Assembly (NCBI GenBank): GCA_013287275.1 | Contig: JABDED010000015.1 | Coordinates: 1-52,458, forward strand | Origin: Betaproteobacteria bacterium | Lineage (GTDB): Bacteria > Pseudomonadota > Gammaproteobacteria > Burkholderiales > Burkholderiaceae_D | Reading direction: 5' to 3' | DNA length: 52,458 nt | Shown: one piece after another, positions 1,232-51,376 of the stretch | Layout: every line of letters starts with the position of its first letter | Position numbering within the stretch: position 1 is the stretch's first letter | The notes under the pieces: model-generated | The model's input: only the letters and a program-made list of their open reading frames with translations | What the model was told of the DNA's origin: nothing | The model's database searches: none | Position numbers and translations under genes: made by a program

Positions 1232-3451
1232 TCATTTAAGTGAAAATTCACAGGCATTATCTTTCAGCAACTGGATGAATTTTTGCTGAGGCAAAGCCTG
1301 GTGGAACAGGAAGCCTTGCAAGGTGGTGCAACCTGCCTGTTCCAGATAGCGCGCCTGGCAGTCGGTTTCCACGCCTTCGGCGATCAAATGCAGGCCAAGG
1401 CCGCGCGCAATCGAAATAATCGCCAGCACGACCGGGTAGTGCCCGTCCGGATCCTGGATTTCCTTGACGAAGGATTGATCGATCTTGATCGTATGCACAG
1501 GGAAGCGGTGCAAATAGGCCAGCGACGAATAACCGGTGCCGAAATCGTCAATCGCCACGCTGATGCCGAGCTGGCACAGCTTGTTCAATTGCTCGATCGC
1601 ATATTGCGGATTGCGTATGCACAGGTTCTCGGTGATTTCCACCTCTATCTGCGAGGCCGCGATCTCATGCGCAGTCAGCGCCGCCTTTAATTTCTTGTGG
1701 AAATCGCCGCGGTCCAGATATTGCGGCGACAGGTTCAGCGACAGGCGCAGGGGCTGGTCGGTGATGGAATTCCACTCCTTCAGGTCGCGGCACAGGGGCG
1801 CCAGCATCCAGTCGCTGATCGGCAGGATCAGGCCGTTTTCCTCGGCAAAGGGCAGGAACTCGCCGGCATTCAAGACGCCGCGCTCCGGATGGTTCCAGCG
1901 GATCAGGCCTTCCGCGCCTATCACCTGGCCGGTGCCGACATCGATTTGCGGCTGGTAATACATTTCCAGCTCGCCCAGTTCCAGCGCCTTGCGCAGGCTG
2001 TGTTCCAGCACGATCTTCTGGTGCGACGCATCCTGCATGGAAATGTCGTAAAAACTGTGGCCGTTCTTGCCCAATGCCTTGACCTTGTACATCGCGATAT
2101 CGGCATGGCGTATCAGGTCATCCGCCGTCTCACCATCGCCGGGGCAGACCGCAATGCCGACGCTGGCCGACACATGCACTTCATGTGCGCCCAGCTGGAA
2201 TGGCTGGCTCAAGGTTTGCACGATCTGGTCGGCGATCATCGCAGCATCCTGCTTGTCGCGCAGGTCCGGCAACAGCACAGTGAACTCGTCGCCGCCCAGG
2301 CGCGCCAGCGTATCGCCCTCGCGCAGACGGTCGCGCAGGCGCGAGGCCACCATCTGCAGCAATTCGTCGCCCTTGATATGGCCCAGCGTATCGTTGACCA
2401 GCTTGAAGCGGTCCAGGTCGACAAACATCACCGCCAGCTCCGACTTGTTGCGCTTGGACTGGATCAGCGCCAGGTTCAAGCGGTCGCGGAACAGCGCGCG
2501 GTTCGGCAGATCGGTCAGGATGTCGTGGTAGGCCTGGTAGGAAATCAACTGCTCGGCGCGCTTGCTCTCGGTAATATCGCGCGCCACGCCATAGGTGCCG
2601 AAGAATTCCCGCTTGCCGTCGCCCTGGTCGACCGAATACATGCCGACCGAATTGAAGGAAATCGACATCACGGTATTGTCGAACTCCCTGTCCTTGTCCG
2701 GTTCATTCTGGTAGCGCAGGCGCAATTCTATATTGCGCGAAGCGCGCGCGCCTATGCGTCGCTCGTTGAACACGTAGCGGGCACGGCCCAGGTCTTCTTC
2801 ATGCACCAGCACCGAATAATGCTTGCCTATCAGCTCATCCGGCTTGTAGCCCAGCAGCTGATGCGCCCTGTCATTGACGAAGGTAAACTTGCCTTCCACA
2901 TTCAGCGTGTAGATGATGTCGGGCGAACTGTCCACCAGGTAACGGTAAAGCTTTTCCGAACATTCCAGGCGCCACGCCATATCGCGGTTTTCTGCTTCCA
3001 GCCGGCGCTTTTGCAGCGCATTTCCCACCGTCTTCAGTAATTCCTCGTGCGGATAGGGCTTGCGCAGATAGCCGTAGGCGCCGCGCTTCAGCGCGCCGAT
3101 CGCCGCATCGATGCCGCGGTCGCCGCTCAGCACGATCACGCTGGCGTCTATGCCGCGCTCATTAATGAAATCCATGATGTCGTGGCCGCTGACATCGGGC
3201 AGGCGCAGGTCCAGCAATACCAGGTCGAAATGCAGCTTGTTTAATTGGTCTATCGCTTCGGCGCCGTTGGTCGCCGTCACCAGATGGTAATCTCCTCCCC
3301 TCAACAATTCATGCAGGCTGCTCAGTAGCCGGGGTTCGTCATCGACCAGCAGTAAACGCGGAATTTTCGCCTGTTCAAGCCTGGCCACTGGATCCATTCC
3401 GTCCAGGGCGACATTGATTGCGGTCGAGTCATACGAGTTTATCAGGCTCAT
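1232..3451 (-). CDS. Response regulator with REC-PAS-GGDEF-EAL domains (c-di-GMP turnover)
   Basis: A 739-residue cytoplasmic protein with no membrane segment. The receiver domain (about 33-147) has acidic residues in VDDE, phospho-acceptor D81 in LLDLRLPD and K131 in RKPYP. A PAS domain covers about 165-295. The GGDEF domain (about 305-465) has an intact GGDEF at 386-390 and an RxxD inhibitory site (REGD, 377-380), so both cyclase activity and product feedback are plausible. The EAL domain (about 480-735) carries the variant EGL at 514-516 but keeps SLNLS, EITEN, IDDFGTGYSS, IKID and AEGVET, the usual metal and catalytic residues, so phosphodiesterase activity is also plausible. It starts 21 bases after the stop of the HDOD kinase gene, so that kinase is the likely phosphodonor. 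Net activity cannot be read from sequence. Confidence 0.95.
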   Translation of the reverse strand: MSLINSYDSTAINVALDGMDPVARLEQAKIPRLLLVDDEPRLLSSLHELLRGGDYHLVTATNGAEAIDQLNKLHFDLVLLDLRLPDVSGHDIMDFINERGIDASVIVLSGDRGIDAAIGALKRGAYGYLRKPYPHEELLKTVGNALQKRRLEAENRDMAWRLECSEKLYRYLVDSSPDIIYTLNVEGKFTFVNDRAHQLLGYKPDELIGKHYSVLVHEEDLGRARYVFNERRIGARASRNIELRLRYQNEPDKDREFDNTVMSISFNSVGMYSVDQGDGKREFFGTYGVARDITESKRAEQLISYQAYHDILTDLPNRALFRDRLNLALIQSKRNKSELAVMFVDLDRFKLVNDTLGHIKGDELLQMVASRLRDRLREGDTLARLGGDEFTVLLPDLRDKQDAAMIADQIVQTLSQPFQLGAHEVHVSASVGIAVCPGDGETADDLIRHADIAMYKVKALGKNGHSFYDISMQDASHQKIVLEHSLRKALELGELEMYYQPQIDVGTGQVIGAEGLIRWNHPERGVLNAGEFLPFAEENGLILPISDWMLAPLCRDLKEWNSITDQPLRLSLNLSPQYLDRGDFHKKLKAALTAHEIAASQIEVEITENLCIRNPQYAIEQLNKLCQLGISVAIDDFGTGYSSLAYLHRFPVHTIKIDQSFVKEIQDPDGHYPVVLAIISIARGLGLHLIAEGVETDCQARYLEQAGCTTLQGFLFHQALPQQKFIQLLKDNACEFSLK

Positions 3452-3472: not shown

Positions 3473-5692
3473 TTATGAATAAGCGACAGATTCGTGCTCT
3501 GTTCGCTGTGCTACCGGCAACCATATTTCAAACGTCGTACCTTGCTTCGTACTGCGGCAACTGATCAGGCCCTGCAATTTCTTCACCAGCCCATGGACGA
3601 TGTTCAGTCCCAGACCGCTGTGGCCTTTTCCTTTGCTGCTCTTGACCGGCGAAAACAACTTCGCCATCACTTCGGGAGCAATGCCGGGGCCGGTATCTTT
3701 TACCCATAATTCCACGTACAGCACGCCATCGCGATTCACCAGGCCATGGCTGCCTATTTCTATCACGCCGCCGGCAGACATCGCCTCCAGCGCATTCTTG
3801 ATCAGGTTCATGAAGATCTGTTTCAGCGTATCGGCGCTGCCGTTGATCTCGAAGGATTCATCCAGCATGCGGTTTTCAATCTTTACCAGCGGCGACGCAA
3901 ACTCTGCCTGCTGGAACAGCCGCACGACTTCGCCGACCACGCGGCTGATCTCGGTCTTGCCGGACTGCTCGGCCAGGTTCACATCGACGAATTCATCGAT
4001 GATCTTGCCGACCCGGTCTATCTCTTCATTCAGTATCGTGACCTCGCCGCTGACCACTTCACGGTTCAATAGTTTGCGGTCCAGGATGCCTAGGTAATTC
4101 TTGATGATGGACAGCGGATTATTGACCTCGTGCGCCACCTTGCGGGATGCTTCGCGATAGCTGCGCGACAGGCTTTCGCTCATATTGTCGGCGTCGTTCT
4201 TTTCGCTCAGCAAGGCCTTCAGCGCCATCGAGGCCTGGCTGCCGAAAGTTTTCAGGAAGTTCTCCCGCTTGGCCAGGTCGTCGGCTTGCCAGGACATGAA
4301 GCCGGCGATCAGCACGCCCAGGCTGTTGCCATCGGCATGCAAGGGCAGGCAGGCCAACTGGTCGGTATTAAACAGGCGCAGCAATTGTTCTTCGAAGACA
4401 CCGATACCGGCGGCCGTTTCCGCCTGCTCGGCGCCGGTAAACATCACGCGGCGCTCGCGCACGGCCTCGGCGATCACACTGCCTTCGGTATCGAGCGGCA
4501 GCGCAAAGTCGGCCAGCCGCAACCTGTGCTCACCGACCCGGCTGCCTACCAGCGCGTCGCCGGTGGCATTGGCCAGCAGGATCACGGCGCCGTCAAAATG
4601 GAACAGGATGCGGGCCGACTTGGCCACGGTTTCCAGCAAGCCGCTCTCGCCCTGCTGCCGCGAGAAGGAGCGCCCCAGTTCCGACGCCAATACTATGCCG
4701 CGCACCTGCTCTATCATCTTGTCCTTGGTGGCATCCCTGGCGACCGGTGCCGGAGCAGCCGGCGCCTGCACTTCTTCGCTGAGGTCGATATCCAGCTGTT
4801 CCGCCGATTTTTGCACCTGGTCCGTCACCCGCCCGCGTATTTCATTCAGGTCGCTGAGCTTTAGCGAGCACAAGGCTCCCGCTTTTTCCAGCTGCGCATC
4901 GTTCAGGCCCTTGCTGTTCAATGCGTGCGCCAGATAGGTAATGCGTATCAGCGGATGCGCCTTCTCCAGCCGCGCAGGCGTCTCATGGTGATACAGCACG
5001 CTGTCGGCGATGAAGGAATCCAGGCTCCATTGCTCTATCAGCCAGGAGCCGACCTCGGCATGCGTGGTCTGCAGCGTACGTTCTTCGACTGCGCACAGGT
5101 TGTCGTCATCCGCGGCAAAGAAATTGAATGCATATTCTTTCGGCAGTATCGCAAACAGCGCCAGGCGGCCTACATCGTGCAGCAAGCCTGCCAGGTAGGC
5201 TTCCTCAGGATTGGAATAGCCTATCTTGAGCGCAATTACCTTGGCGGTCATGCCGGACTGCACGGAATGCGACCAGAAGCCGCGCAGGTCGGTGCCGCCC
5301 GGTTGCGACAATTTGTCAAAAATCTGGGAAACCGATTCATTGATGACGATGGTCTTGATCATCTCGGTGCCGATGGCCTGCAGGGCTGGATCCAGCCCGT
5401 TGCAAGGGCCGTTGCGGTGGTAGGCCGAGCTATTTGCGACTGCCAGCATCTTGGCCGTCATCGCCGTGTCCTGGGCGATCAGGCGCGACAAGTCTGCCAC
5501 CCCCACTTCCTCGGATTGACATTGCTCCATTAACTTGAGCAAGGTCTGAGGCATGGATGGCAAACGCGCAGCCATCAAGCGGCTGCGAATATCAAGATCC
5601 TGTTGAGTCGTTTTTATTTTGCTCTCCCAACCAAAACACCTGTAACGCCTGGCACCGCTTATATTCACGCCTGAGCCTGACCTGCCCATCAA
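3473..5692 (-). CDS. HDOD-GAF-histidine kinase hybrid
   Basis: Up to 739 residues. The order is an HDOD domain (about 40-285, with LLHDVGRL around 171-178), a GAF-like region (about 350-495), and a kinase core with H-box AHEVNNPLS (H521), N-box IKNALEAM (N633), DTGPG (666-670) and GLGL (693-696). No transmembrane segment is seen, so this is a cytosolic sensor kinase. It is first in the operon HDOD kinase > REC-GGDEF-EAL > Sel1 and is the obvious phosphodonor for the receiver of the next gene. The start is uncertain. The longest frame starts TTG 5692 or ATG 5689, neither with a ribosome-binding site. A good GGGAGAG lies 4 bases before an ATA codon at 5617. The next in-frame ATG (residue 40) would cut into the HDOD domain. 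Confidence 0.9.
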   Translation of the reverse strand: MMGRSGSGVNISGARRYRCFGWESKIKTTQQDLDIRSRLMAARLPSMPQTLLKLMEQCQSEEVGVADLSRLIAQDTAMTAKMLAVANSSAYHRNGPCNGLDPALQAIGTEMIKTIVINESVSQIFDKLSQPGGTDLRGFWSHSVQSGMTAKVIALKIGYSNPEEAYLAGLLHDVGRLALFAILPKEYAFNFFAADDDNLCAVEERTLQTTHAEVGSWLIEQWSLDSFIADSVLYHHETPARLEKAHPLIRITYLAHALNSKGLNDAQLEKAGALCSLKLSDLNEIRGRVTDQVQKSAEQLDIDLSEEVQAPAAPAPVARDATKDKMIEQVRGIVLASELGRSFSRQQGESGLLETVAKSARILFHFDGAVILLANATGDALVGSRVGEHRLRLADFALPLDTEGSVIAEAVRERRVMFTGAEQAETAAGIGVFEEQLLRLFNTDQLACLPLHADGNSLGVLIAGFMSWQADDLAKRENFLKTFGSQASMALKALLSEKNDADNMSESLSRSYREASRKVAHEVNNPLSIIKNYLGILDRKLLNREVVSGEVTILNEEIDRVGKIIDEFVDVNLAEQSGKTEISRVVGEVVRLFQQAEFASPLVKIENRMLDESFEINGSADTLKQIFMNLIKNALEAMSAGGVIEIGSHGLVNRDGVLYVELWVKDTGPGIAPEVMAKLFSPVKSSKGKGHSGLGLNIVHGLVKKLQGLISCRSTKQGTTFEIWLPVAQRTEHESVAYS
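5615..5628 (-). promoter_or_regulatory. Ribosome-binding site before a possible ATA start
   Basis: On the minus strand GGGAGAG (5628-5622) is followed by CAAA and an in-frame ATA (5617-5615). It is the only good Shine-Dalgarno sequence near the HDOD kinase start. If used, the protein would begin at residue 26 of the longest frame, just before the HDOD domain. ATA starts are rare, so this stays a hypothesis. Confidence 0.35.
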
Positions 5693-19504: not shown

Positions 19505-20761
19505 TTACTTTAATCCCAAGAAATGTTTATGGCGTAAATTTAATGCTGAGACACTTGGTTGATCGGTTAGCTTTTTGGGAAATGTTAGGCATTTATCGGC
19601 GTAAGCTCCATATTCTGTGTCTTTCAATTTCTCTGAAAGATGAATATTACCGTTCTCATCAATCGACAGCAGCTTTAGATCATACAGTGAGTGAATATCT
19701 GCTCTTAGTAGCAATCCGTTTGTCACGGAATAGTTTTGTCCTTTCGAGTGCGGTGTAATGTGTGCAGCCTCTAAGAGATCTTCGATTTTAGAACCTGTGA
19801 CGGCGCATCGCTTTCCATAGGCGTTCAGCAAAGCTTGACGAAATTTTGTTTGCCCTCTACGAGTGCGAATCGCCCGTAGTTGAATTGCATCTTCCGACTC
19901 GTTTTCAGGAATAACTAAAGTATTACCAAAATCATCCAGAGGTTTTACGCCACGTACTAAAAGACAATTGCCTGTTAATTTTTCATATCGATGAACATAC
20001 CAATTCGCCAAGTCTAGAGAACGGAAGTGCACAGTCGAGGATGTTTCCCCGAGCTCATCTTTTTTTCTGCGGTCTCCATCTGTAAAAATTACTCTTACAG
20101 GCATTCCTGTTCTACAAGAAAACGCCATTGCAGAATCGACCTGTCGGGCGCGGCTAGCCTGCTGCAACGCTCGTATTTTTTTAGCACTATCACTATTTTT
20201 ATCGAGCGCGATTGCATCCAGGTCGGCCGCGAGTTTTCGAGCGCTGCTTTCAAATGCAATCTCTCCGTCCGACTCTATCAGTGACGAATGCCAAACACAA
20301 AGTACAAATCCCTCTTTCTCAGATCCAAATGACCAGTTGTAACAATAATTTGGATTTGCTTTCGGTTTCTTTACCAATTGGCCAGATTTTGTGTAATTCC
20401 ACGCATCGACAGAAATATTTGCTTGTACTAGCAAATCGAAAAGATATTCCAGTTTTAAGGGACGAAGGTCATCAATGACGGCGACATCTGTCCGCTTGAA
20501 CAGTTGTTGCCGACGGAGGATGATTCGCTCCCTCTTGCGATCCAGCTCGTAGCGCTCCCATCCTTCTTTCTGCCAAAGATACGCTAGTATATGACCTTGT
20601 TCCTTCTTCGTGCTATACCACCAAGCGTCATGCTTTCGGGCACTTCCCGGAAGTTTCTTGCCAAGGATTTTTTCGATATCCTCGAAGGAAAGATCCACCT
20701 CATCTTTTTTAAGATCGCGCAAGTATTCTACGAAATGTAAATAGTCAGCTATTTTTGTCAT
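19505..20761 (-). CDS. HNH endonuclease with N-terminal DUF7662-like domain
   Basis: 418 residues. The N-terminal part (about 1-85, with LSFEDIEKILG..LP.SARKH..WW) looks like the DUF7662 family. The middle (about 105-275) is unassigned, with a WYVHRYEKLTGNCLLVRG block. The C-terminal HNH_2-type nuclease (about 305-370) has CAVTG, EAAHITPHS (H334), N348 and H357. This layout is often found in restriction or modified-DNA-cleaving proteins; the target is unknown. GC is clearly lower than the neighbours (about 42% in one hand-counted 60-base line), which suggests transfer. No methylase is adjacent. ATG 20761 has no clear ribosome-binding site. Confidence 0.85.
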   Translation of the reverse strand: MTKIADYLHFVEYLRDLKKDEVDLSFEDIEKILGKKLPGSARKHDAWWYSTKKEQGHILAYLWQKEGWERYELDRKRERIILRRQQLFKRTDVAVIDDLRPLKLEYLFDLLVQANISVDAWNYTKSGQLVKKPKANPNYCYNWSFGSEKEGFVLCVWHSSLIESDGEIAFESSARKLAADLDAIALDKNSDSAKKIRALQQASRARQVDSAMAFSCRTGMPVRVIFTDGDRRKKDELGETSSTVHFRSLDLANWYVHRYEKLTGNCLLVRGVKPLDDFGNTLVIPENESEDAIQLRAIRTRRGQTKFRQALLNAYGKRCAVTGSKIEDLLEAAHITPHSKGQNYSVTNGLLLRADIHSLYDLKLLSIDENGNIHLSEKLKDTEYGAYADKCLTFPKKLTDQPSVSALNLRHKHFLGLK

Positions 20762-26608: not shown

Positions 26609-29600
26609 ATGAAAATTTCGCGTCTTATGCTGTCCCTTGCCCTGGCAGGGTCGGTCTCGCCGGCTTTTGCCGGCGATGCCTACTACCGCTTCCCTTCTAT
26701 ACATGCGGATGCCGTCGTGTTCACGGCGGAAGGAGATTTATGGAGGGTGGGTAGCAATGGCGGACAAGCGCAAAGGCTCACCACCCATCCGGCCGCCGAA
26801 ACCAATTCAGCCATATCGCGCGACGGCAAGTGGCTGGCGTTTTCCGCTTCGTATGAGGGCGCGCAGGAGGCCTATGTGATGCCGCTGGCGGGCGGCCTGC
26901 CCAAGCGCCTGACTTTTGAGAACGGCGCCGTCAGCGTGCTGGGCTGGAGCGCGCAGGGCGAGGTGCTGGTCACCACGCAAAACAGCAGCGGGCCGTCGGC
27001 GCATCGCATCATCGCCGCGGTGGATCCGCAGAGCATGGCGCGCCGCGTATTCCCGGTAGCCGACGCCAACGAGGCGACACTGGACGACAGCGGCAAGATC
27101 CTGTATTTCACGCGCTACGGCTTGCACATGACGAACGACAATGTGCGCCGCTACCGCGGCGGCGCCTATGCGCAATTGTGGAGCTACGAACTGCAAGGCA
27201 AGGCGGAAGCACGGCCGTTGTTTGCCGGCGACACTTCCAACAACAAGCGCCCGATGTGGTGGAATGGCCGACTGTATTTCGTCAGCGACAGGGATGGCGC
27301 CGACAACCTGTGGAGCATGAACGCGGACGGCAGCGACAAGCGCGCACTGACCAGCTACAAGGAATGGGACGTGCGCAACGCCAGCATGGGTGACGGCAAG
27401 ATCATCTTCCAGTTGGGCGCCGACCTGCATGTATACGATATCGCCCGGCAAGACGACAAGCTGCTAAAGATAGACCTGGTGTCCGACTTCGACCAGCAAA
27501 GGAGCCGGCTGATCAAATCGCCGCTGGAGCAGCTCTCCAATACCCAGCTATCCAATAAGGATGAACGCATCATCATCACCGCCCGCGGCAAGGTCAGCAT
27601 TGCCGGCACCGGCTCGCAAAGGCGCATAGAAATCGCCGTACCGCAGGGCTCACGCGCCCGCGGTGCGGTATTCAGCCATGACGACAAGTGGGTATATGCG
27701 ATAGTCGACACCACTGGTGAAAACGAAATCTGGCGTTTCCCCGCCAATGGCGCCGGCCCCGGCGAAGCCCTGACCCGTGACGGCGACAGCCATCGCTGGC
27801 AGTTGTATCCGTCGCCGGACGGCAAATGGCTGGCGCATACCGACAAGCGCGGCCGTTTCTGGCTGCTGGACCTGGCCAACAAAAAGAACATCGTCATCGA
27901 CGACGCCGGCAAGGTCGGCGTGGACCAGCATGAAGAAGTGGTCTGGTCGCCGGACAGCAAAACCCTGGCCATGGTGCGCGCCACCAATAGCGCCCAGCGT
28001 GAACAGATAGGCCTGTATGCGCTGGACTCAAAAGAACTGGCCTTTGTCACTACCGACCGCTACACCGCCGGTTCGCCGGCCTTTTCGCCGGATGGGAAAT
28101 GGCTGTATTTCATGTCCGACCGCAACTTCAAGCTGGCCAACGGCGCGCCCTGGGGCGACCGGAACATGGGCCCGGTATTCGACAAGCGCACCGGCGTATA
28201 TGCGCTGGCCCTGCAACCGGGCAATCGCTTCCCTTTCAAACCGGATGATGAGCTGAGTAAACCTGATCCCGCCAAGGCCGACGTCAAGGACGACAAAAAG
28301 CCGGTCGCGGAAACAGACCAGAAGGACGCCGGCAAGAAACCGGCCAAGCCTGCCTCCCCGGCGGTGGTATTTGCGGGACTATCTGGACGCTTGTATGAGG
28401 TTCCGCTGGCGGCGGGCAATTACCGCTCCCTGGAGGTAGACGACAAGCGCCTGTACTTCCTGGAGCAGGACCCCGGTGAAAACGGCAAGGCCACGCTGAA
28501 AACGCTCGCCATCAGCAGGACCAGCCCGCAGCCCGAGGTATTCACGGCCGGGGTGCGCACCTATGACCTGTCCAGCGACAAGAAGCGCGTGTTCTATCAG
28601 ACCTATGCCGCCTCCGGTCCCGGCGAATTTGTCATCGTGGACGCCGGAGCCAAGCAGCCGGCCGATATCAGCAAGGCCAAGATCAAGGTCGACGACTGGT
28701 CGTTCAGCTCCAATCCGCGCGAAGAATGGAGGCAGATGTTCACCGACGCCTGGCGCATGCACCGGGATTTCCTGTACGACGCCAAGATGCGCGGCCTGGA
28801 CTGGCTGAAGATACGCAACAAATATGCGCCGCTGGTCGAACGCATCACCGACCGCGCAGAGCTGAACGATATCCTCGGCATGATGGTGGCCGAAGTCGGC
28901 GCCTTGCATTCGCAGGTCGCGCCCGGCGACATCCGCAAGGCTACGCCTGAAGGCCAGCCGGCCGGCCTGGGCGCGGTCTTGTCGCACGCGGCGGACGGCT
29001 ACCGCATCGACCACGTCTACCGCAGCGAACCCGAGCTGCCCTCAGAACGCGGGCCGCTGGCGCAGGCCGACATGGACATCAAGGATGGCGACGTGATTAC
29101 CGCGGTCAACGGCAGACCCGTGCTGCAGGCGCGCGATATCTCCGACCTGCTGCTGAACCAGGCCGACAAGCAAGTATTGCTGCATGTGAAACGCGGCACG
29201 GCGGCGGCCAAGCCCTTCATCGTCATGCCGGTATCGATGACCAGGCAAAACAGCCTGCGCTACAGCGACTGGGAACAAAGCCGCAGCAGCCGCGTCGATG
29301 CCGAATCCCAGGGGAAAATCGGCTACCTGCACCTGCGCGCGATGGGCCAGAACGATATCGCCAGTTTTGCGCGCGACTTTTACAGCAACATCAACCGCGA
29401 CGGCCTGATCATCGACGTGCGCCGCAACAACGGCGGCAATATCGACAGCTGGATCATAGAAAAACTGCTGCGCAAAGCCTGGGCCTTCTGGTCTTCGCCG
29501 AATAACCAGCCGGCCAGCAATATGCAGCAGACCTTCCGCGGCCATCTGGTGGTACTGGTGGACGAGCTGACCTATTCGGATGGCGAAACCTTCGCCGCCG

Positions 29601-29911
29601 GTGTCAAGGCGCTCGGCATTGCGCCCTTGGTCGGCAAGCGCACGGCCGGTGCCGGTGTCTGGCTGTCCGATCGCAACCGGCTGGCGGACAACGGCATGGT
29701 CAGGGTTGCCGAGAACGGCCAGTTCGCCGCCGACGGCCGCTGGCTGATCGAAGGCATAGGCGTATTGCCGGACGTCGAAGTCGATAATCCGCCGCATGCG
29801 ACCTTTGCCGGCGAAGACAGGCAACTGGAGGTTGCGCTGCAATTGCTGGAAAAGAAGCTGAAGGAACAGCCGGTCAAGCCGTATATGCCGCAAGTCATCC
29901 CGGCTTTATAG
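26609..29911 (+). CDS. Tricorn-type serine protease (S41 family), exported
   Basis: 1100 residues. A cleavable signal peptide ends near AFA (about 21-22). Two beta-propeller regions (about 25-620) contain repeated SPDGKW-like blades. Then a helical region, a PDZ domain (about 790-870, GLGAVLSHAADGY...DGDVITAVNGRPV) and the S41 catalytic domain with DVRRNNGGN and YSDGE (nucleophile S990). Tricorn-type proteases degrade peptides; bacterial homologues with signal peptides are periplasmic. A K/D/P-rich linker (about 550-590) separates the propellers from the rest. A strong terminator follows. Confidence 0.93.
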   Translation: MKISRLMLSLALAGSVSPAFAGDAYYRFPSIHADAVVFTAEGDLWRVGSNGGQAQRLTTHPAAETNSAISRDGKWLAFSASYEGAQEAYVMPLAGGLPKRLTFENGAVSVLGWSAQGEVLVTTQNSSGPSAHRIIAAVDPQSMARRVFPVADANEATLDDSGKILYFTRYGLHMTNDNVRRYRGGAYAQLWSYELQGKAEARPLFAGDTSNNKRPMWWNGRLYFVSDRDGADNLWSMNADGSDKRALTSYKEWDVRNASMGDGKIIFQLGADLHVYDIARQDDKLLKIDLVSDFDQQRSRLIKSPLEQLSNTQLSNKDERIIITARGKVSIAGTGSQRRIEIAVPQGSRARGAVFSHDDKWVYAIVDTTGENEIWRFPANGAGPGEALTRDGDSHRWQLYPSPDGKWLAHTDKRGRFWLLDLANKKNIVIDDAGKVGVDQHEEVVWSPDSKTLAMVRATNSAQREQIGLYALDSKELAFVTTDRYTAGSPAFSPDGKWLYFMSDRNFKLANGAPWGDRNMGPVFDKRTGVYALALQPGNRFPFKPDDELSKPDPAKADVKDDKKPVAETDQKDAGKKPAKPASPAVVFAGLSGRLYEVPLAAGNYRSLEVDDKRLYFLEQDPGENGKATLKTLAISRTSPQPEVFTAGVRTYDLSSDKKRVFYQTYAASGPGEFVIVDAGAKQPADISKAKIKVDDWSFSSNPREEWRQMFTDAWRMHRDFLYDAKMRGLDWLKIRNKYAPLVERITDRAELNDILGMMVAEVGALHSQVAPGDIRKATPEGQPAGLGAVLSHAADGYRIDHVYRSEPELPSERGPLAQADMDIKDGDVITAVNGRPVLQARDISDLLLNQADKQVLLHVKRGTAAAKPFIVMPVSMTRQNSLRYSDWEQSRSSRVDAESQGKIGYLHLRAMGQNDIASFARDFYSNINRDGLIIDVRRNNGGNIDSWIIEKLLRKAWAFWSSPNNQPASNMQQTFRGHLVVLVDELTYSDGETFAAGVKALGIAPLVGKRTAGAGVWLSDRNRLADNGMVRVAENGQFAADGRWLIEGIGVLPDVEVDNPPHATFAGEDRQLEVALQLLEKKLKEQPVKPYMPQVIPAL

Positions 29912-48267: not shown

Positions 48268-48299
48268 AAGCAAGCAGCCGGTATGGTGCTTGCTTTTTT
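48268..48299. terminator. Bidirectional terminator between M28 and HiPIP genes
   Basis: A 9-bp stem AAGCAAGCA / TGCTTGCTT with a 10-base loop, followed by TTTTA on plus and TCTTGTTT on minus. It touches the HiPIP stop. Confidence 0.85.
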
Positions 48300-48579
48300 A
48301 CTTCCTGGTAAACGCCATGCACCAGCCGTCGCGGTCTATTTGTCCGGCTACGACGCGGCAGGCGCCCTGGGTACCGCTGCCGTCTGCCGGAGGAATGAAT
48401 GCCGCGCAATCCGCGCATCTCTGGCCGTCCTTGGGACGGTCTTGATAGTGCAGGTCGAAGCGGGATGCGCCGGCCGCGGCGTCCCGGTACAGGCCTGCCA
48501 GTGGAAGCGCCGCCAGCGACACCAGCGCCACGGCGCCTTGCTTCAGCATGCGGCGGCGCTGGCAGTGTTGTGCGTCCAT
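48298..48579 (-). CDS. High-potential iron-sulfur protein (HiPIP), Tat-exported
   Basis: 93 residues. The N-terminus RRRMLKQGAVALVSLAAL is a Tat-type signal. The mature domain has four cysteines in the HiPIP order (CADC, then one about 16 residues later in GACR, then one in GWCMAF), which bind one [4Fe-4S] cluster. A periplasmic single-electron carrier, usually between a donor and a cytochrome or oxidase. It starts 28 bases after the stop of the cytochrome-porin gene on the same strand, so the two are probably one operon and the HiPIP may take electrons from it. Confidence 0.92.
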   Translation of the reverse strand: MDAQHCQRRRMLKQGAVALVSLAALPLAGLYRDAAAGASRFDLHYQDRPKDGQRCADCAAFIPPADGSGTQGACRVVAGQIDRDGWCMAFTRK

Positions 48580-48607
48580 TTTTGATTGTTCCTTTCAAAT
48601 CGAGGGC

Positions 48608-49933
48608 CTAAAACATCAGCCAGGTCATCAGATACAGGGTGTTGTTATTCCTGGCATTCCTGCCGAAGCCGTCGTAATTGCTCGCGGCCCCGTTAAACCG
48701 TGTGTAACCGGTGTACTGCAGCGCAATGCGGATGTCGCGGCGCGGCAGATAGTTCAATTCAACGACATAGCCATTGCTATTGGGGCTGCCGCCGGCACTG
48801 CCGGTTACCGGCGCGCCGGTGTTGTACAACAGGTCGTCGCCGTTGCCGCGCAGCGAAAAATAGCTGAGGTTGATCCCGTATTGCTTCTGATAGTAGTAGC
48901 TTAGCTTGCTGCGAAACGACTTGAGGACGTCGCTTTGATTGCTGAACGACGACGCATTCCAACGCTGGTTTTCGCGGATAGTGTTGAGTTGCGCAGAAAA
49001 GCGATGGCGATCGGTAATGTATTGGTACTGGGCGTCGAAACCGATGTCGCGCAGGCGGTCAGCCGCGCCGAAGGGCATGCCGCTGTCCGGATAGCGATTG
49101 ATGTTGATGCCATACGTGCCGAGCATGGCCGAATGCATGCCTGCCCCCCACTCATGCTGCAAGGCCAGGCGCCAGTAGGGATTCAAGCCCCGCAGCGCAG
49201 CGTCGCCGGCATGATCGGTGCCCGCACGGAGCAGCGAGAAGGCCTTGTCGGCAGTACGGTAAGCGCTCAGCTCTGCGTATACCGTGTTATGCCAAAGCGC
49301 GTAGGCTCCGAACCCGGCCACTTGCTGGCCCAGGCTTTCTATCACTGTGCCGGCATTCGGGGCCGGCGCGACCGGTGACGATGCGAATGGAAATCCCCAG
49401 ATGGGGCCGGTATTATAAATATCTTGCACCATGGGGTTGTTGTGCAGCGTCACGCCGGCAATCGTTGCTTGCGGACTTTCGCCGAACCTCTGCGCGTAGC
49501 GCAGGTCGAGATTGTCGATGCTGGTGTGGTGCGCGACGCCGTCATAAGTGACCTGGCTAAAGATGCCGAGCTGCTCGGCAAGTTTGCCGGAAACAAACAC
49601 GCTGGCTTGTTGCAACACCAGTTCCCGGTCCTTGGGGAAATTATCCGCCTGCCTGGGATCGACGTTAGCTGTTGACGTGCGCGACACCTGCAACATGCCC
49701 GCCAGCGGCACCCGCAGTTGCTCGCCTAACGTATAGCCGTTCAGTTTGAATAGCCTGCCGGTAGGCGTGAGTTCCGGCCAGCTCACATGGCATGTCATAC
49801 AATCGAGCTTGGTTTGCCGCGCGAAGCTGGGGACGGCATGGGCCGGCTGCATCATGAGCAACAAGAGAACCGGCAAGAAAAATATCCCCGCCATGCGCGC
49901 GGGACTATATGCAAGCGACTGCTGGATAGGCAT
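48608..49933 (-). CDS. Cyc2-like fused c-type cytochrome / outer-membrane porin
   Basis: 441 residues from ATG 49933 (GCGGAG upstream); the frame runs on to 50161 without a better start. Signal peptide to about residue 33 (AHA). The mature N-terminus VPSFARQTKLDCMTCH holds one heme motif CxxCH and continues PELTPTGRLFKLNGYTL. The remaining 350 residues have alternating, aromatic-rich strands and end in Phe, as outer-membrane barrels do. This is the layout of Cyc2, the monoheme cytochrome-porin of iron oxidisers, though many heterotrophs carry homologues. Electron transfer across the outer membrane is plausible; the substrate is unproven. HiPIP follows. Confidence 0.85.
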   Translation of the reverse strand: MPIQQSLAYSPARMAGIFFLPVLLLLMMQPAHAVPSFARQTKLDCMTCHVSWPELTPTGRLFKLNGYTLGEQLRVPLAGMLQVSRTSTANVDPRQADNFPKDRELVLQQASVFVSGKLAEQLGIFSQVTYDGVAHHTSIDNLDLRYAQRFGESPQATIAGVTLHNNPMVQDIYNTGPIWGFPFASSPVAPAPNAGTVIESLGQQVAGFGAYALWHNTVYAELSAYRTADKAFSLLRAGTDHAGDAALRGLNPYWRLALQHEWGAGMHSAMLGTYGININRYPDSGMPFGAADRLRDIGFDAQYQYITDRHRFSAQLNTIRENQRWNASSFSNQSDVLKSFRSKLSYYYQKQYGINLSYFSLRGNGDDLLYNTGAPVTGSAGGSPNSNGYVVELNYLPRRDIRIALQYTGYTRFNGAASNYDGFGRNARNNNTLYLMTWLMF

Positions 49934-50280: not shown

Positions 50281-51243
50281 TCACTGCCGCGAACGCAACT
50301 CCCGCACCCCGCGCCCTATCTTGCGCCGCAAAAGCGTACGCAAAGTAACGCCATCCGCATAGCCCACCTGCGAAGCGATCTGGTCTATGCTCGCGCTGCT
50401 GGTTTGCAGCAAATGCACCGCCCTCTCGACCCGCAGATCCTGGAAGTAGGACAAAGGCGTCTTGCCCAGCACCGCGCGCAAACGCCGCGCCAGCGTGCGC
50501 TCGCTGGTGCCGGTCGCTTTCGCCGCTTCGCTCAGCAAGAATCCTTCGGCCAGCTTGCCGCGCGCCCATTGCTCAAAGCGTTCCACGACCGGATCGGTAT
50601 GCGCCAGATGATCGGGGATCACAAATGCGGCCTGTGAAGGGCGCGGCTCTATCACCAGGTAGCGCGCGGTCATCGCCGCCAATGCCGGGCTGATGCTGCG
50701 CACCAGCCACAGCGCCAGGTCCAGATGCCCAAGTGCAGCGCCGGCGGTTATCCGGTTGGCGGAATTGACCAGCATATGCGACTCATCCAGCTTGACTACG
50801 GGAAACAGCTCACGGAACAGTGGCGCCAGCCACCAGGACGTGGTGGCGCTATGCCCATCCAGCAAACCCGCATTGGCCAGCATGAAGGTGCCGGTGCAGG
50901 CAGCGGCAATCATGCTGCCGCCATCGGCCCAGCCCTTCAGTATCTTGCCGATATCCGCCACTTCCTTGCGCTGCAAGGCGGCGCGCACCTGCTCCGGCAT
51001 TTTTGCCCCCATTGCCGGCACCAGCACCACGTCCGGCCTGTCCAGGCCGGACGCAGGCGCAACCGGCACGGTAAAGCCATGGCTGGTGCGTATATGCTTG
51101 CGCACAGACAACAATTGCACGTCGAAACGGCAAGCCGGATCGCCTCCCATTGCAGCCAGTTCATTGGCAATGCCGAAGGTATCCAGCAAGGTGGACAGGC
51201 CGGTATCAAACACATCATCAACGACCAGGATATAGATTTTCAT
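50281..51243 (-). CDS. GlxA-type AraC-family transcription regulator
   Basis: 320 residues from ATG 51243; the frame extends to 51294 with ATG 51255 as an alternative. An N-terminal DJ-1/PfpI-like domain (about 1-185, MKIYILVVDDVFDTGL; AAACTGTFMLANAGLLDG) and a C-terminal AraC helix-turn-helix pair (about 220-318, FLLSEAAKATGTSERTLARRLRA; IDQIASQVGYADGVTLRTLLRR). It divergently flanks the ABM-domain gene, which it probably controls. Confidence 0.9.
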   Translation of the reverse strand: MKIYILVVDDVFDTGLSTLLDTFGIANELAAMGGDPACRFDVQLLSVRKHIRTSHGFTVPVAPASGLDRPDVVLVPAMGAKMPEQVRAALQRKEVADIGKILKGWADGGSMIAAACTGTFMLANAGLLDGHSATTSWWLAPLFRELFPVVKLDESHMLVNSANRITAGAALGHLDLALWLVRSISPALAAMTARYLVIEPRPSQAAFVIPDHLAHTDPVVERFEQWARGKLAEGFLLSEAAKATGTSERTLARRLRAVLGKTPLSYFQDLRVERAVHLLQTSSASIDQIASQVGYADGVTLRTLLRRKIGRGVRELRSRQ

Positions 51244-51376
51244 GGCAGGAATCATAGCATAACTGTCATTCCTGCCACTTATATGCGAACGCATTGAGGC
51301 CTATCATCGCTCCTGTTGTTCAAGCACACAACACATCCCACCACTGGGACGCATTTAAATTAAAAGGAGATACACC

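Follow-up and report, generated by a model that had tools for sequence, protein, structure and literature searches.

A Cyc2-like cytochrome-porin gene followed by a high-potential iron-sulfur protein gene in Burkholderiales

The gene for Cyc2, a cytochrome fused to an outer-membrane porin, is among the leading markers of iron oxidation by microbes. The family has been defined in part by the sequence AXPXFAR[Q/K][T/Y] just before the heme motif, which is described as unique to Cyc2 (Keffer 2021, PMC8406198). In Cyc2PV-1, the heme plug is reported to face the periplasm, such that entry into the pore is required of a dissolved donor (PMC8406198). Burkholderiales are already known from the literature to have Cyc2 homologues (PMC10654088, PMC8406198), and homologues are reported well beyond the known iron oxidisers, including in the highly sampled Burkholderia, Ralstonia and Xanthomonas (Keffer 2021, PMC8406198). 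The periplasmic acceptor of Cyc2 electrons is said to vary among organisms (PMC11412304), and the role of a high-potential iron-sulfur protein (HiPIP) encoded beside Cyc2 in Ferrovum JA12 was called unknown (PMC4725956). Here we describe a Cyc2-like gene and an adjoining HiPIP gene on a stretch of 52,458 nucleotides (contig JABDED010000015.1, assembly GCA_013287275.1, Betaproteobacteria bacterium), referred to as the window. The family itself is already known; the locus is a well-supported variant of it, new in that a different electron carrier stands in a fixed gene slot.

Sequence and predicted structure of the two proteins

The first gene of the pair encodes a protein that is placed in the Cyc2 family by the sequence and predicted-structure criteria applied. 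The stretch AVPSFARQT lies three residues before C45 and agrees with the consensus of Keffer 2021, and the single CXXCH motif (C45-M-T-C48-H49) is followed, four residues on, by a PXL motif (P53-E-L55). The protein is 441 amino acids long, above the Cyc2 minimum of 365, and ends in Phe. Its predicted structure is a fused, OprP/OprO-like porin of 16 strands. AlphaFold2 placed these strands between residues 77 and 440 when given a 98-sequence alignment (mean predicted local distance difference test score (pLDDT) 92.5, predicted template modelling score 0.88), and a shallower alignment of 11 sequences also gave 16 strands (pLDDT 62.7). Structure comparison with Foldseek and VIA-align matched the barrel to porins, with OprP and OprO in the VIA list.

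Conservation of the heme block was assessed in 92 distinct, full-length relatives that had been retrieved solely by similarity. The heme motif and the FxR[QK] stretch were kept in 91 of these, and the remaining relative (L080) kept the heme motif with FAEQT before it; an ordinary porin lacking heme was therefore rejected. The heme-block columns were also invariant in the 98-sequence alignment. This invariance counts for less, because the rows of that alignment had been selected for carrying the motif, and patterns derived from it had served to find the named loci. Searches of the Cyc2-like protein against family libraries and PDB sequences returned no real match, and a 16.5-bit NCBIfam match to holo-ACP synthase was dismissed as chance. 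The gene was the only copy found in its own genome, which is 56% complete.

The second gene encodes a HiPIP, as indicated by a Pfam PF01355 match of 32.4 bits (cut-off 22) and the presence of all four cluster cysteines. Its sole NCBIfam match was to the iron oxidase Iro (NF041615) at 59.4 bits, and because this score lies below the equivalog cut-off of 100 we do not call the protein an Iro. The closest solved relatives were PDB 1isu (E 3.6e-08) and PioC (6xyv, E 8.5e-05). Among the 16 HiPIPs linked to Cyc2-like genes, the twin arginine was present in all 13 that had a usable start call, and the start calls of the other 3 were unusable. Across 294 genomes of the same family, PF01355 gave 87 matches, comprising 71 full-length proteins (64-97 bits) and 16 short ones (22-34 bits); the window HiPIP is of the short kind. 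Eight of the 16 short HiPIPs lie beside a Cyc2 gene. One of the 8 unlinked matches (L249) is possibly no genuine HiPIP. Within 3.5 kb of these 8, CXXCH frames did not exceed 123 amino acids (one contig being just 3.75 kb long). A HiPIP tree built on 62 columns resolved little (approximately unbiased test, p-AU 0.384), and the isoelectric points of HiPIPs and heme plugs offered no useful contrast. A second, full-length HiPIP gene was seen in the same genome on another contig (C29, 10933-11121, L250), apart from the Cyc2-like gene.

The pair had been noticed in a preliminary description made from the nucleotide sequence, and its account of the locus proved accurate. The coordinates, the same-strand order of the two genes and the 28-base spacing were exact, and the sequence bore out the Cyc2 layout it had described (a putative signal peptide, one CMTCH within a PSFARQT...PELTPTGR..KLNGY block, and a terminal Phe). 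It had also proposed a barrel, and named the lack of one as an outcome that would speak against it; the 16-strand prediction gives the opposite outcome. The twin-arginine stretch, the PF01355 match and the four cysteines likewise agree with its proposal of a HiPIP exported by the twin-arginine translocation (Tat) pathway.

Recurrence of the pair and the carrier slot downstream of Cyc2-like genes

In the 294 same-family genomes, 13 of 45 Cyc2 matches had a HiPIP gene within 2 kb, whereas gene density in genomes of 4.5 Mb predicts approximately 0.05. The 45 matches include fragments, and the pieces of two broken genes (G013, G239) were merged. Adjacency of Cyc2 and HiPIP is thus not due to chance, and chance neighbours were rejected as the principal explanation. 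The two families also occurred together by genome: 24 genomes had both, 14 had Cyc2 only, 49 had HiPIP only and 207 had neither (Fisher p 7e-8, a value that ignores kinship). The HiPIP was short in 8 of the 13 adjacent cases and full-length in 5; among the latter, it lay upstream of Cyc2 in G036 and beside the broken Cyc2 gene in G239. The nearest relative (G165, 70% identical) kept the pair with a gap of 16 bases. In three loci compared by Pfam the outer neighbours differed, being an M28 peptidase and an AraC-type regulator in the window, a sigma factor gene in G165 and a PhyH gene in Telluria.

The carrier encoded downstream was then assessed for 161 distinct motif-bearing Cyc2-like genes, drawn from genomes of the same genus, family, order and class and from named records. 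A carrier was counted if it lay downstream on the same strand with its stop within 1.3 kb. The named records were the best 80 of 579 relatives of the window query, so the proportions do not describe all Cyc2 genes. Fragments, motif-less genes and exact repeats were dropped before the count, by which L154 and L175 fell out of the 80 named loci, and L178 and L184 each yielded two genes. A diheme c4-like cytochrome was encoded downstream in 69 cases, a HiPIP in 16, both in 4 and neither in 67, and the contig ended too soon in 5. The term c4-like is our own label, as the profile used to find the diheme partner was built up from a single example, which has two Cytochrom_C stretches and matches no NCBIfam family over its cut-off. 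Most relatives with either carrier thus have a cyc2-cyc1-like order, and the counts of 69 c4-like and 16 HiPIP-only genes show that the HiPIP occupies the gene slot of the Cyc1-type diheme carrier in the window and its kin. Together with the adjacency in the family sample, the 16 HiPIP-only loci answer the question of conservation in related genomes that the preliminary description had raised; it had counted homologues that never co-occur with HiPIP as evidence against the pair, and recurrent adjacency contradicts this.

By source, the HiPIP-only form was found in 6 of 32 genes from the genus and family, 0 of 23 from the order, 0 of 26 from the class and 10 of 80 from the named records. Its named holders were Telluria antibiotica, three Collimonas records, Cupriavidus basilensis and a Rhizobacter metagenome-assembled genome (MAG); the other 4 of these 10 were MAGs. 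Another CXXCH frame lay near 25 of the 67 genes with neither carrier (by a crude test), and "neither" does not mean carrier-less; the rus-like operon described below, for example, has a cupredoxin-like gene. In four loci (L022, L024, L045, L151), the Cyc2-like gene is followed by genes for both the diheme cytochrome and a HiPIP of full length, which may represent an intermediate arrangement.

Two trees of the Cyc2-like genes were built, a careful one from 62 of the 161 genes and a quick one from all 161 rows. In the careful tree, the window gene fell in a clade of 14 rows (support 100/99), 9 with HiPIP and 5 without. A Collimonas-Cupriavidus clade of 7 rows, all with HiPIP (100/100), was separate from the window clade, and c4-linked and carrier-less genes grouped with it rather than with the window clade at moderate support (91/81). 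These results suggest two origins of the HiPIP pairing. They do not show them, because union of the two HiPIP clades, which were designated once the quick tree was known, was not rejected (p-AU 0.109). In the quick tree, the HiPIP label needed 6 changes, compared to a mean of 15.4 when shuffled. One HiPIP-less member of the window clade (L114) carries, from 6773 onward and directly after its Cyc2-like gene, a HiPIP-like Tat-signal start interrupted by a stop codon. This broken start may hint at loss, by gene decay, or may be an assembly error.

Features of the locus and its surroundings

The Cyc2-like gene comes first on the minus strand and the HiPIP gene lies downstream, with exactly 28 bases between them (Table 1). 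A consensus scan of the gap detected no promoter- or terminator-like site, although such scans were uninformative. The outer neighbour upstream, on the same strand, encodes a protein that combines a DJ-1/PfpI domain with an AraC-type helix-turn-helix (50281-51294, minus strand), a candidate regulator that scored 122.6 bits against FtrA, below the cut-off of 425. The neighbour downstream is a convergent M28 peptidase gene. The genes of the rus operon that accompany cyc2 (cyc1, cup, coxBACD and rusticyanin) were not found among the outer neighbours of this locus.

Table 1 Features of the Cyc2-like and HiPIP genes in the window
Feature	Position	Strand	Basis or remark
Cyc2-like monoheme cytochrome-porin gene	48608..49933	minus	441 aa, stop included; open frame and translation
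Signal peptide, residues 1-33 (MPIQQ...AHA)	49835..49933	minus	Putative; hydrophobic N-terminus read by eye; helix 11-27 in model
Cytochrome block A33-Y67: AVPSFARQT..CMTCH..PELT..GR.FKLNGY	49733..49837	minus	Agrees with Cyc2 consensus of Keffer 2021
CMTCH heme-binding motif, residues 45-49	49787..49801	minus	Direct reading of sequence
16-strand beta-barrel, residues 77-440	48614..49705	minus	Predicted structure; Foldseek and VIA-align matches to porins
Intergenic gap, 28 bases	48580..48607	minus	Ribosome-binding-like AAAGGAA at 48589-48595, before HiPIP ATG
HiPIP gene, short Iro/PioC-like kind	48298..48579	minus	93 aa, stop included; PF01355
Twin-arginine stretch RRRML, residues 8-12 of HiPIP (RRRMLK in sequence)	48544..48558	minus	Sequence
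HiPIP cluster cysteines C55, C58, C74, C87	48319..48417	minus	Sequence; alignment to 1isu and PioC

Elsewhere in the window, positions 26609-29911 (plus strand) encode a tricorn-type protease of 1,100 amino acids with an S41 peptidase domain, a PDZ domain and propeller repeats, and 19505-20761 (minus strand) encodes a 418-amino-acid protein in which DUF7662 is joined to an HNH_2 endonuclease domain. Two adjoining open frames on the minus strand, 1232-3451 and 3473-5692, have the same length (739 amino acids); the product of the former is a response regulator-PAS-GGDEF-EAL protein.

Proposed electron route and comparison with known systems

From the Cyc2 signature and predicted barrel, the order of the genes, the HiPIP match, the recurrence of the pair and the position of the HiPIP in the c4-like slot, we propose that the two genes probably encode an outer-membrane electron conduit, in which a Cyc2-type porin feeds a Tat-exported HiPIP, most likely with electrons from Fe2+. 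The N-terminal monoheme domain, with heme attached, would plug the 16-strand porin at its periplasmic mouth. If the window protein resembles Cyc2PV-1, its plug faces the periplasm and the donor enters the pore. A small dissolved donor, most likely Fe2+, would move into the pore and reduce the heme, which would pass single electrons directly to the HiPIP, itself presumably made from the same transcript as the Cyc2-like protein. The HiPIP would then cross the periplasm by diffusion and deliver the electrons to a bc1 complex or an oxidase in the membrane. The potentials reported are 208 mV for Cyc2PV-1 and 450 mV for PioC, a HiPIP that accepts electrons from an outer-membrane complex that oxidises iron (PMC10879576), and transfer to a HiPIP would therefore be downhill. 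More speculatively, and with less confidence than in the conduit itself, we consider that an iron-sulfur protein may have displaced the Cyc1-type diheme cytochrome as the acceptor of Cyc2. The result would be a self-contained two-gene cassette for electron uptake, mobile among genomic contexts that are otherwise unrelated, in heterotrophic Oxalobacteraceae and Cupriavidus. There, Fe(II) or some other small reductant would supply electrons to a high-potential pool in the periplasm, with no need of multiheme cytochromes.

Several observations weigh against the proposed conduit. The 67 of 161 relatives with neither carrier downstream, and the close relatives Pseudoduganella flava (L115), Massilia rhizosphaerae (L116) and G925 (L083), which have no adjoining HiPIP, indicate that the HiPIP is not obligatory. 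The other half of the short HiPIP matches (8 of 16) stand apart from Cyc2, and selection by motif partly accounts for the unvarying heme block of the 98-row alignment. The window protein also lies away from the Cyc2 of a rus-like operon in genome G861 (contig C3, L206), the sole such Cyc2 placed in the tree; one homologue from a Gallionella MAG likewise fell outside the window's clade. The G861 operon reads cyc2, cup, coxB, coxA, coxC, ctaA, ctaB, rusticyanin, its cox, cta and cup genes being recognised by eye and its rusticyanin scoring 137.2 bits against a cut-off of 146.7. No cyc1 was seen between cyc2 and cup in this by-eye reading. Lastly, the 56%-complete genome of the window organism gave no RuBisCO match and no sign of iron-based autotrophy. 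COX1-family fragments were present, and together with the missing RuBisCO match they fit a heterotroph with a supplementary path rather than an autotroph, which cannot decide the matter.

The pair may also be read otherwise. Electrons may flow inward by a route that is not chiefly iron respiration, either from another small donor or through Fe(II) oxidation as a protective or redox-balancing side route in a heterotroph. We consider this less probable than the iron-fed conduit, yet a serious contender. The lack of a RuBisCO match is in keeping with it, although in a genome so incomplete absences mean little, and the pair-bearing relatives include Collimonas, Telluria and Cupriavidus, which are heterotrophic soil genera. 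Furthermore, both He 2017 (PMC5566968) and Keffer 2021 (PMC8406198) warn that homologues outside the known iron oxidisers may act otherwise. The heme block of the window protein and its relatives is, however, kept as in the family at large (91 of 92). If Fe(II) is the donor, such Burkholderiales would join the possible iron oxidisers; if it is not, the pair would help to delimit a subfamily of Cyc2 that is unsuited as a marker of iron oxidation. In either case, the recurring pair names a concrete Cyc2 partner in genera with named isolates (Collimonas, Telluria, Cupriavidus).

Outward flow, in which the HiPIP and then the Cyc2-like protein would pass electrons to Fe(III) or another acceptor outside the cell, appears improbable. 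Nothing in the sequence fixes the direction, and Cyc2 and Cyc1 isoforms have been named in ferric iron reduction by acidithiobacilli (PMC10715153). However, the HiPIPs listed in PMC10879576 span 50 to 633 mV, mostly a poor fit for reducing Fe(III) near neutral pH, and the Cyc2 proteins with published assays are reported to oxidise iron (PMC8406198). It is slightly more improbable still that chance, or shared regulation only, explains the adjacency of the two genes, with the HiPIP serving another pathway. Several close relatives do keep the porin gene without a HiPIP, and half of the short HiPIPs in the family sample stand alone, yet adjacency within 2 kb far exceeds its expectation. In addition, the 16 HiPIP-only loci fall in two separate clades with the HiPIP downstream on the same strand, outer neighbours differ among the three loci compared, and the HiPIP takes the position held elsewhere by the c4-like carrier.

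With respect to novelty, the preliminary description had limited Cyc2 to iron oxidisers, which was too narrow given the homologues reported far beyond them (PMC8406198). Its suggestion of an undescribed variant stands for a HiPIP in the Cyc1-like diheme slot but not for the Cyc2-HiPIP cluster as such, which had already been reported in Bradyrhizobium (PMC5566968). A literature search by title and visible abstract found no description of a two-gene Cyc2-HiPIP unit or of carrier exchange, and no paper pairing Cyc2 with Collimonas; subscription papers lay mostly outside its scope, and the result is not proof of novelty.

The window protein resembles Cyc2 of Acidithiobacillus ferrooxidans and Mariprofundus in having a putative signal peptide, a single CXXCH within the signature, more than 365 amino acids and an OprP-like 16-strand barrel. 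In Acidithiobacillus, cyc2 is reported to be followed by cyc1-cup-cox-rus (PMC10654088), whereas the window gene is followed by a HiPIP gene alone. Records from Paraburkholderia, Ralstonia and Trinickia share with the window a homologous Cyc2-like gene and a carrier directly downstream on the same strand, but their carrier is a diheme c-type cytochrome rather than a HiPIP. Plasmids of Caballeronia and Ideonella also have a c-type cytochrome in the downstream carrier place; on the Caballeronia sp. SBC1 plasmid pSBC1_3 (734 kb, L257), the order is HiPIP, Cyc2-like "cytochrome C", c-type cytochrome, with the HiPIP upstream. Other plasmid-borne Cyc2-like matches came from Ideonella, Paraburkholderia, Acidiphilium, Acidithiobacillus, Polymorphobacter and Methylocystis. 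Across the 9 plasmid records found, the annotations read "cytochrome C" in 4, hypothetical in 4 and both hypothetical protein and c-type cytochrome in 1. The Bradyrhizobium cluster (He 2017, citing Percak-Dennett 2017; PMC5566968) likewise joins a cyc2 gene to a HiPIP gene, but is reported to add three periplasmic cytochromes, including homologues of Cyc1 and CycA1. Iro of A. ferrooxidans, a HiPIP, is the sole NCBIfam match of the window HiPIP and of three other linked HiPIPs, yet all four score 52-67 bits, under the equivalog cut-off. Finally, the pair is similar to PioABC of Rhodopseudomonas palustris TIE-1, a porin-cytochrome conduit of the outer membrane whose periplasmic carrier is a short HiPIP, but where PioA is described as a decaheme cytochrome and PioB as a separate outer-membrane porin, the window protein is a monoheme fusion.
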